A stretch of 64,000 bases of DNA from Roseibium sp. MMSF_3412. Lineage in GTDB: Bacteria > Pseudomonadota > Alphaproteobacteria > Rhizobiales > Stappiaceae. Shown here piece after piece: positions 7,927 through 15,169 of the stretch; the first letter of the stretch is position 1, and every line of letters begins with the position of its first letter. The translations under genes and the position numbers were made by a program. The notes under the pieces are model-generated. The model searched no databases. It worked only from the letters and a program-made list of their open reading frames with translations, and was not told the DNA's origin. The DNA lies in the NCBI RefSeq assembly GCF_030733265.1, contig NZ_JASHJI010000001.1, positions 434,001-498,000 of the forward strand, given 5' to 3'.

Positions 7927-9204
7927 TCACGCGAAGCCGACCAGAGCCCTGCGGCGTTTGCCGACCGAAAGGGCCAGCCTGTCATTGGCCTTCAGGTCGC
8001 CGGTTCCGATGCGCCGTTTCGGATCGTCGACGATCCGGCTGTTGAGGCGGACGCCGCCGCCTTCCACCAGACGCCGGGCCTCGCCGTTCGATGCAGCAAA
8101 GCCGATGGCAACCACGAGTTCCAGAAGACCAAGCCCGTCGGCAAGTCGCCCGAGCGGCAGCATGTGCGTGGGCTCCAGTATTTCGCCTTCGCCGGCAAAC
8201 AGGGCGTCTCCCTGCTGCAGGGCCGCGCGGGCTTCCTCGGGTCCGTGGACAATGGTCGTGACCTGGGTCGCCAGGATTTTCTTGGCCTCGTTCAGCTCCG
8301 CACCCTCAAGGGCCGAGAGCCTTTCCACTTCGCTGATCGGCAATTCCGTGAACAGGCGCAGGCATTTGCCGACATCGGCGTCTGCCGTGTTGCGCCAGAA
8401 CTGCCAGAAGCCGAAGGGTGACAGATGTTCGGGATGCAGCCAGACGGCGCCCGCGGCGGTCTTGCCCATCTTGGCACCGCTCGCGGTTGTCAGCAGCGGC
8501 ACCGTCAGACCATGCAGCTTGCGGCCATCGCGCCGGCCGAGTTCAACACCGTTGACGATATTGCCCCACTGGTCAGAGCCACCGACCTGCAGGACACAGT
8601 CGTGACGTTTGGCCAGCTCCAGAAAATCAACGGCCTGAAGCATCATGTAGCAGAATTCCAGAACCGTCAGCGGCATCTGTGCGTCCAGGCGCGACCTGAC
8701 GCTGTCGAAGGTCATCATGCGGTTGACGGTGAACTGGGATCCATAGTCGCGGAGAAATTCCAGGAAGCGGAACTCGTTGAGCCACTCCGCGTTGTCGACC
8801 AACAGGGCACCATCCGGACCGTCCATGTCGACCAGCCGCTCGACCGACCGCCGGATGGTGGCGATGTTCGCCGAGATCTGGCGCTCCTCAAGGAGGGGCC
8901 TGGCATCATTGCGAAAGCTCGGGTCGCCGATCTGACTTGTGCCGCCGCCGAGAACGACGATCGGGCGATGCCCGAGTTTCTGCAGCCAGCGCATGGTCAT
9001 CAGCGGCATGAGGTGGCCGACATGAAGACTGGCGGCGGTGGCATCGAAGCCGGCATAGGCCGTGACCGGTCCTTCGGAAAGCCTCTTGTCGAGCGCTTCA
9101 ACGTCCGTGCACTGGTGCACGAGACCGCGTTCCAGAAGCACGGCGAGTGCTTCCGATTTGAGCTTTGTCGCCGGTTTTCCGGCTTCAATCATGTGCTTGG
9201 TCAT
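7927..9204 (-). CDS. tyrS: Tyrosyl-tRNA synthetase
   Basis: 425 residues, the usual length for bacterial TyrRS. Class I signatures are present: H-V-G-H at 61-64 as the HIGH motif, K-M-G-K-T near 245 as KMSKS, and the tyrosine-pocket region around Y50-A-G-F-D and Q-V-G-G-S-D-Q-W-G-N. The last ~60 residues form an S4 RNA-binding domain. It charges tRNA-Tyr. ATG 9204 is chosen because AGGAAG lies 6 bases upstream; the longer frame would start inside a terminator hairpin. The upstream leader carries a candidate attenuator. Confidence 0.96.
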   Translation of the reverse strand: MTKHMIEAGKPATKLKSEALAVLLERGLVHQCTDVEALDKRLSEGPVTAYAGFDATAASLHVGHLMPLMTMRWLQKLGHRPIVVLGGGTSQIGDPSFRNDARPLLEERQISANIATIRRSVERLVDMDGPDGALLVDNAEWLNEFRFLEFLRDYGSQFTVNRMMTFDSVRSRLDAQMPLTVLEFCYMMLQAVDFLELAKRHDCVLQVGGSDQWGNIVNGVELGRRDGRKLHGLTVPLLTTASGAKMGKTAAGAVWLHPEHLSPFGFWQFWRNTADADVGKCLRLFTELPISEVERLSALEGAELNEAKKILATQVTTIVHGPEEARAALQQGDALFAGEGEILEPTHMLPLGRLADGLGLLELVVAIGFAASNGEARRLVEGGGVRLNSRIVDDPKRRIGTGDLKANDRLALSVGKRRRALVGFA

Positions 9205-9238
9205 TTTGGGCTTCCTGGTTTCCCCGCCAGGAGCCCTT

Positions 9239-9280
9239 GAAACCAAAAAGCCGCCTGACGCGGCGGCTTTTTTAGGTTTC
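9239..9280 (-). terminator. Terminator hairpin of the tyrS attenuator
   Basis: On the minus strand GCCGCC (9267-9262) pairs with GGCGGC (9255-9250) across a GCGTCA loop, followed by TTTTT (9249-9245). Flanking A/T tracts and GAAACC/GGTTTC arms extend the stem to 9280-9239. It ends only 35 bases before the tyrS start, so it would stop tyrS transcription itself, not just that of the gene upstream. Confidence 0.8.
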
Positions 9281-9298
9281 TAAGAAATGAGCAAGATC

Positions 9299-9364
9299 CT
9301 ACGCAGCCGCCTGTATGTCGGTGACGTAATAAAAATACACGAAGGTCGCGGTCATCTTGGTCAT
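9299..9364 (-). CDS. Putative tyrosine-rich tyrS leader peptide
   Basis: A 21-codon ORF, too short for routine gene calling, runs from ATG 9364 to TAG 9301-9299. Codons 10-13 read Tyr-Phe-Tyr-Tyr (TAT TTT TAT TAC, 9337-9326). A second in-frame ATG at 9355 is an alternative start, and neither has a strong Shine-Dalgarno. The last codons (CAG GCG GCT GCG) carry GGCGGCT (9311-9305), complementary to AGCCGCC in the 5' arm of the downstream terminator. Stalling at the Tyr codons would leave this segment free to form an antiterminator; translation to the stop codon would mask it. This is read directly from the sequence; expression is inferred. Confidence 0.72.
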   Translation of the reverse strand: MTKMTATFVYFYYVTDIQAAA

Positions 9365-9448
9365 GACAGTCTAGATGCGACACGTTGCGTGCAGAGTCAA
9401 GACGCTAGTTGCCGGTCGTGTTCATGGCCCACGATGTGTTGCATTTTT

Positions 9449-14822: not shown

Positions 14823-15025
14823 CCCCCTCTGTCTGAGAACCTGAGAGATTTCCCGCAGGACGCGAACACGGCATCCGGCAGCTACTCCGTCGGTGAGCAC
14901 TCCACCAAAGGCTTGGCGGAGCACTGCTTTCCAGAGCGTTTTTTCCCCTGCGGTCCTTTTGCCTGAGAGTTTCCGGGGCGGTTGCTCCTTCGGCACCGGG
15001 CGTGTCAGCCCGATTTCTCCCGCAT
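14823..15025 (-). ncRNA. Tandem glycine riboswitch
   Basis: Read on the minus strand, aptamer 1 carries the hallmark GCCGAAGGAGCAA and AAACTCTCAGGCAAAAGGAC blocks. After a short linker, aptamer 2 carries CTCTGGAAAGC, CACCGACGGAGTAGC and ATCTCTCAGG, and ends in AGACAGAGG. This two-aptamer arrangement is the classic gcvT-type glycine sensor. It points at gcvH and osmC. Glycine binding normally turns these genes on. Confidence 0.93.
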
Positions 15026-15169
15026 GGGACTAGCGCGCAAAAACACGCCCACCAGGGCACGACCCTGAGTGGAAACGGATTGTGAGAGGGCAACATGCCC
15101 TTGTCAATACGGGAGAAACTGCAAGAAACCTGCGAAGACAAAGAAGTCCGGGATGCAGGCGCTGCCGGC

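Follow-up and report, generated by a model that had tools for sequence, protein, structure and literature searches.

A probable tyrosine-reading leader-peptide attenuator upstream of an auxiliary tyrosyl-tRNA synthetase gene in Stappiaceae

The leader of tyrS2, an auxiliary tyrosyl-tRNA synthetase (TyrRS) gene in a Roseibium genome, was found to combine a short open reading frame (ORF) containing a run of Tyr codons with an RNA segment that can pair either with part of that ORF or with the 3′ arm of a terminator. Comparison of related leaders and their predicted folds makes it very likely that the region is a ribosome-mediated transcription attenuator, which reads charged tRNA-Tyr and controls the auxiliary synthetase. 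Expression of tyrS2 would probably be switched on only when charged tRNA-Tyr is scarce. The coordinates of all elements are given in Table 1; "the window" denotes the whole stretch of DNA that was analysed, 64 kb in length. The 21-codon ORF, its Tyr-Phe-Tyr-Tyr codons, and the complementary GGCGGCT and AGCCGCC segments were all read where a first-pass annotation of the sequence had placed them, and the T-run of the terminator hairpin, put by that annotation at about 40 bases before tyrS, lies 40 nt from the tyrS2 ATG at 9204.

Table 1. Elements of the tyrS2 locus (positions in the window).
Element	Position	Strand	Details
Predicted promoter	9372-9400	-	-35 TTGACT 9400-9395; 17-nt spacer; -10-like CATCTA 9377-9372
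Leader ORF MTKMTATFVYFYYVTDIQAAA	9299-9364	-	ATG 9364-9362; stop TAG 9301-9299; 21 codons
Control codons Tyr-Phe-Tyr-Tyr (TAT TTT TAT TAC)	9326-9337	-	read directly, and from comparison of leaders
Segment 1 and protector hairpin 1:2	9300-9328	-	UACGU 9328-9324 with GCGUA 9304-9300; predicted fold
Segment 2, GGCGGCT, antiterminator 5′ arm	9305-9311	-	begins 14 nt past the last Tyr codon
Segment 3, AGCCGCC	9262-9268	-	partner of segment 2 in the antiterminator and of segment 4 in the terminator
Segment 4, GGCGGCT, and T-run; terminator 3′ arm	9245-9255	-	GGCGGCT 9255-9249; T-run 9249-9245
Shine-Dalgarno hairpin	9208-9236	-	GGGCTCCTGG 9236-9227 with CCAGGAAGCCC 9218-9208; covers tyrS2 Shine-Dalgarno AGGAAG 9216-9211
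tyrS2, auxiliary tyrosyl-tRNA synthetase	7927-9204	-	425 aa; TIGR00234 equivalog

In the proposed mechanism, a ribosome supplied with ample Tyr-tRNA would clear the Tyr codons and cover segment 2, which lies within the loop of the predicted protector hairpin 1:2; with segment 2 covered, segments 3 and 4 would pair, and RNA polymerase would halt before tyrS2. Under a shortage of Tyr-tRNA, the ribosome would stall at the Tyr codons and mask segment 1; segment 2 would then pair with segment 3 ahead of the synthesis of segment 4, such that tyrS2 would be transcribed. The Shine-Dalgarno hairpin would provide a second layer of control.

A second tyrosyl-tRNA synthetase gene

The product of tyrS2 matches the TyrRS equivalog TIGR00234 with 345.5 bits, compared to a cut-off of 113.8, in agreement with the first-pass assignment of the gene as tyrS. 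It is, however, a second, divergent tyrS and not the housekeeping gene, with 49% identity to the other tyrS copy of the source genome (G000:C33:85955-87190). In a tree of 61 TyrRS rows, the 18 TyrS2 sequences make up one side of a branch with support of 100/100, and four canonical Stappiaceae TyrRS sit with those of other Hyphomicrobiales, separate from TyrS2. The HIGH- and KMSKS-type signatures are intact in all 93 TyrS2 sequences (overlapping loci counted), indicating that the enzyme is probably active. A plausible role for tyrS2 would be that of a back-up, used when the housekeeping TyrRS fails to keep tRNA-Tyr charged.

Both tyrS genes were present in 37/37 genomes of the source genus in the first search. 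Among 87 genomes of the family, tyrS2 occurs in every genome of genera g1 (45/45), g28 (5/5), and g29 (1/1) and in 15 of the 16 genomes of g30, and is absent from g26 (0/3), g27 (0/3), and g31 (0/14). A gene of the tyrS2 type is also found in named records of Roseibium/Labrenzia, Pannonibacter, and Pseudovibrio.

Conservation of the leader

A leader ORF with an aromatic run, containing at least two Tyr codons, and a GCCGC hairpin within 110 nt was found at 116/116 tyrS2 loci of the Stappiaceae; these comprise 66 species genomes and 50 named records, mostly of the same species, and yield 63 distinct leaders. No Tyr leader precedes the canonical tyrS at any of 43 loci (four from Stappiaceae, 39 from other Alphaproteobacteria), in a scan that recovered both of the tyrS2 loci included in the same run. 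At two of the 43 (L049 and L162), a hairpin resembling a terminator is present, with no Tyr leader beside it. Canonical tyrS loci L080-L090 were scanned separately, outside the count of 43; a short ORF with a YY pair at L086-L088 is unlike the tyrS2 leader and was set aside. A covariance model built from 26 tyrS2 leaders (R2) matched 67 of the 87 family genomes, namely all 66 that carry tyrS2 plus G076, a genome of the Pseudovibrio genus described below, and none of the other 20. Six weak second matches to R2 (E 0.002-0.008, in G094, G022, G077, G080, G087, and G088) could be chance hairpins or further attenuators.

The combination of elements is also rare in the sequence itself. The window contains 1174 short ORFs of 8-45 codons; only one has at least three Tyr codons within five, six have a terminator within 110 nt, and the leader ORF alone unites the Tyr cluster, a terminator within 110 nt, and a complementary segment. 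Twenty dinucleotide shuffles gave 31,456 short ORFs, one of which had three Tyr in five codons and none of which combined such a cluster with a terminator. The predicted fold of the 129-nt leader RNA was better than those of 200/200 shuffles (z -4.35). A chance origin is untenable because the leader and hairpin are conserved together at every one of the tyrS2 loci.

The terminator hairpin (9249-9280, minus strand) scores as a terminator on both strands because its flank is A-rich, and it may also end transcripts arriving from the opposite side. This two-sided score would suit an ordinary terminator of an upstream gene, next to which the short ORF is incidental. Such an explanation is extremely improbable, given that the hairpin is conserved with the leader at all tyrS2 loci, that a promoter-like TTGAC stands at a fixed distance upstream of the leader, and that Tyr run and terminator never coincided in the shuffled ORFs. 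Altogether, the conservation of leader and hairpin and the 14-nt spacing described below support the leader-peptide attenuator proposed in the first-pass annotation.

Control codons and spacing

Tyr codons are the most constant feature of the leaders. Tyr occupies the second-last aromatic position in all 63 distinct leaders and the last one in 60, with Phe there in the remaining three, so that the Tyr codon conservation asked about at the outset was borne out. Segment 2 begins 14 nt past the last aromatic codon in 63/63 leaders; the word at that place is GGCGGC in 59 and is one base off in four (L068, L070, L071, and L072). A translating ribosome covers about 10 nt past the A-site codon; at a spacing of 14 nt, stalling on the last Tyr codon would thus leave segment 2 just free.

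The position of the stop codon, which had also been expected to be conserved, was found to shift. Counted from the start of segment 2, the last base of the stop is base 1 in L059, L062-L064, L069, and L079, and base 13 in Roseibium and in leaders of the Pannonibacter indicus type; in the other leaders of the Pseudovibrio genus it is base 19 or base 28. In L068, L071, and L075, where the stop lies 28 nt on, coverage of segment 2 by a ribosome at the stop would be marginal. A fixed 14-nt distance with a moving stop fits attenuation by ribosome stalling, rather than a functional peptide.

In one alternative, the product of the leader ORF has a function of its own as a small peptide, or is a nascent-peptide arrest sequence responding to a cue other than Tyr-tRNA. 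This reading draws on the Roseibium leaders, in which the C-terminal FxYFYYVTDI(P/S)AAA is nearly invariant, even at wobble bases, and on the Trp leader peptide of Sinorhizobium, which is described as acting in trans in the part of the source available (PMC7298713). In leaders other than those of Roseibium, this C-terminal part has given way to other residues or been truncated (TAPF, ATHS, AANI, SAAAFL, and SAACVRPCS), whereas the Tyr codons persist at the same distance from segment 2, and segment 2 is retained even where it falls downstream of the stop codon. A functional peptide is therefore considered very unlikely, and ribosome stalling on the Tyr codons is the favoured reading.

Alternative folds and pairing support

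When a ribosome held at the last aromatic codon is taken to mask all of the sequence upstream, and transcription has yet to reach segment 4, the antiterminator is predicted with a probability of at least 0.99 in 58/63 leaders (lowest value 0.68). With the ribosome at the stop codon, and segment 2 masked by assumption, the predicted probability of the terminator is at least 0.83. Once segment 4 is present, the terminator is predicted to exceed 0.5 at equilibrium in 60/63 leaders even in the stalled state, which implies that the decision must be kinetic. In the absence of a ribosome, the predictions for 44/63 leaders, the source locus among them, have the antiterminator forming first, and leader translation would thus be needed for termination. 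Hairpin 1:2 is predicted in all 63 leaders, starting at or just past the last aromatic codon, and is not competitive with the 2:3 pairing without a ribosome in 44 of them.

Compensatory changes, which the first-pass annotation had proposed to look for in both pairings, were not seen in the antiterminator, which is near-invariant: 98.7% of cells are paired across 26 diverse leaders, and 1522 of 10,000 permutations of the arms were as good as the native partners. Covariation cannot support this pairing because its columns hardly vary. The changes in hairpin 1:2 are suggestive only. When its arms were permuted, with the kinship of leaders not controlled, 153 and 38 of 10,000 permutations were as good; column-wise shuffles of 26 leaders gave weaker values (42/500 for pair types, 60/500 for covariation score, and 346/500 for cells paired). 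In these leaders, 87% of hairpin 1:2 is paired, compared to 4-59% in slid versions.

Transcript start and the Shine-Dalgarno hairpin

The sequence TTGAC lies 34-38 nt upstream of an in-frame leader ATG in 63/63 distinct leaders, the distance being 36 nt in 39 of them; the leader ATG was chosen with this distance in view. At the source locus, the -10-like CATCTA ends 7 nt upstream of the leader ATG. A generic sigma-70 scan found no promoter upstream of the leader, and none of the 63 distinct leaders has a Shine-Dalgarno-like motif before its ATG. A TTGAC at a set distance, together with the lack of a Shine-Dalgarno motif, points to a leaderless message, in which transcription probably starts at the leader AUG; the first-pass annotation makes no mention of this.

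The Shine-Dalgarno hairpin, an element absent from the first-pass annotation, lies between the terminator and tyrS2 and is the best-covarying element of the leader, with clear compensatory changes. Its native arms have a mean energy of -15.7 kcal/mol, compared to -13.8 kcal/mol for permuted arms, and 0 of 10,000 permutations were as good, in tests that ignore relatedness among leaders. Two further pairings were dropped: that of the leader start with a conserved GAUCUUG past the stop, in which the leader bases vary, and that of GGUUUC past the T-run with the Shine-Dalgarno hairpin, which is not conserved.

The strong covariation of this hairpin raises the alternative that control is mainly exerted on tyrS2 translation, with the Shine-Dalgarno hairpin as the switch and the upstream hairpins acting on it. 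The terminator hairpin is retained throughout, and in Pseudovibrio and the Pannonibacter carbonis type it is followed by weak U-runs, as a translational switch would allow. The aligned Roseibium leaders, however, keep a run of five T, and inspection by eye revealed no segment whose pairing with the anti-Shine-Dalgarno arm is confined to one leader state. Predominantly translational control is accordingly judged unlikely, and transcription attenuation is retained as the main level of control.

Covariation of the same hairpin, and the T-boxes that govern tyrS and tyrZ in Bacillus, would also be compatible with a T-box, a tyrosine-binding riboswitch, or an operator bound by TyrRS, with the ORF as mere decoration. 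The leader is, however, in good part coding and most constant in its Tyr codons, and no T-box was found at the Rfam gathering threshold in the window, where the only match at that threshold is a glycine riboswitch elsewhere. An RNA element or operator of this sort is highly improbable, compared to an attenuator that depends on leader translation. The glycine riboswitch aptamer (RF00504, 70.5 bits) lies at 14941-15032 on the minus strand.

Relation to known systems

The amino acids read by known leader-peptide attenuators include His, Trp, Phe, Leu, Thr, and Ile-Val. In Escherichia coli, pheST is controlled through the leader peptide pheM; this is likewise a proteobacterial synthetase under a leader peptide, reading Phe, although the enzyme is the sole, essential one there. 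An auxiliary, antibiotic-resistant tryptophanyl-tRNA synthetase was reportedly found by Vecchione and Sello in 2010 to be under ribosome-mediated attenuation, and would resemble tyrS2 as a spare synthetase with a leader-peptide attenuator, for Trp and not for Tyr. The tyrZ gene of Bacillus subtilis is reportedly subject to a MarR regulator in addition to its T-box. Like TyrS2, TyrZ is a second, regulated TyrRS; it is described as being under T-box control, with no leader peptide, in the part of the source available (PMC9437257).

Attenuators were predicted for trpS2 and leuS of Streptomyces, by a comparative approach that, as here, places a leader peptide with an antiterminator and a terminator upstream of a synthetase gene; those cases concern other amino acids in another phylum, and the portion of that paper available includes no tyrS case (PMC1262725). 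The closest likeness in Alphaproteobacteria is to trpLE(G) of Sinorhizobium meliloti, compared here by description and not by sequence. As far as the available parts of the sources extend, its leader-peptide attenuator has a leader RNA that starts with the leader AUG (a probable feature of the tyrS2 leader), runs of the sensed codon, and alternative terminator and antiterminator structures, whereas it reads Trp and controls a biosynthetic gene, compared to Tyr and a synthetase for the tyrS2 leader (PMC7298713, PMC10117765).

The open literature searched, in the parts available, contained no leader-peptide attenuator that reads tyrosine or controls tyrS; most subscription work, including a 2010 survey by Lopatovskaya and colleagues, lay outside its scope. 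Within that literature, the kind of attenuation is known; what appear to be new are the amino acid that is sensed, the gene that is controlled, and the taxon. If true, the mechanism would account for the operation of a second TyrRS in much of a marine bacterial family. The natural variants, in which the stop has moved and the distance from Tyr codons to antiterminator is kept, would be well suited to studying the geometry on which attenuation depends.

Natural variants and occurrence beyond the Stappiaceae

Retention of the terminator with loss of the Tyr codons, which had been named as evidence against the attenuator, was found once, in G076, where tyrS2 is lost too. This genome keeps the leader and hairpin in a relict-looking form (L200, around G076:C1:3418923-3419034, minus strand), with YVYFT as the control run, and its sole TyrRS match at E <1e-30 lies elsewhere on the contig. 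This one case suggests that the control codons decay once tyrS2 is lost.

A search of the class with R2 matched 12 of 385 genomes: the source genome, one real case (L191), and ten chance hairpins without a Tyr leader, as judged by eye. The real case is in G711, which belongs to another family and has two tyrS matches, compared to one in each of its 13 family fellows. Upstream of its second tyrS (L191:1470-1640, plus strand), MTEMMHITAVYFARLP is followed, after 14 nt, by the segment GGGGCGGC, a GCCGCC terminator, and a Shine-Dalgarno hairpin, and TTGAC stands 36 nt upstream of an in-frame ATG. G711 is the weaker case because its leader has a single Tyr codon. The TyrRS of this second copy forms a long branch between the Stappiaceae TyrS2 and the canonical enzymes; no such leader was found at the canonical tyrS loci of the family (0/14).

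A broader proposal, put forward tentatively by analogy and regarded as doubtful, is that a tyrosine-specific attenuator and an inhibitor-tolerant, or more selective, spare TyrRS form a transferable unit. Such a unit might shield marine Stappiaceae, and at least one alphaproteobacterium outside that family, against poisoning of the housekeeping TyrRS or mimics of tyrosine, acting at two levels of control, namely transcription attenuation and opening of the Shine-Dalgarno hairpin.

Two tyrS matches occur in 7 of the 356 class genomes that have a match, in a table read by eye; the source genome (G000) and G711 are two of the seven. Candidates G611, G674, and G795 were rejected as second-tyrS genomes, since their matches look like split copies, and in the incomplete genomes G619 and G628 no Tyr leader was found in the two readable upstream regions out of four.

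A search of the order with model R1 matched 9/297 genomes, comprising six Stappiaceae, two leaders of DAHP synthase genes, and L099, rejected as a hairpin with no accompanying Tyr leader. Among the 81 genomes of the family of G189, R1 gave four matches, two by chance and two of the DAHP synthase type, as judged by eye (L097 and L180). In the latter type (L097:1491-1700, plus strand; L098; also L183-L187), from genomes of a large family of the same order, a leader MIHLTASFWYFYYSSLAAGGLRSI is followed by a terminator and a short Shine-Dalgarno hairpin before a DAHP synthase gene (TIGR00034). This leader looks like a separate aromatic-amino-acid attenuator, and its pattern was found in 5/61 genomes of that genus.
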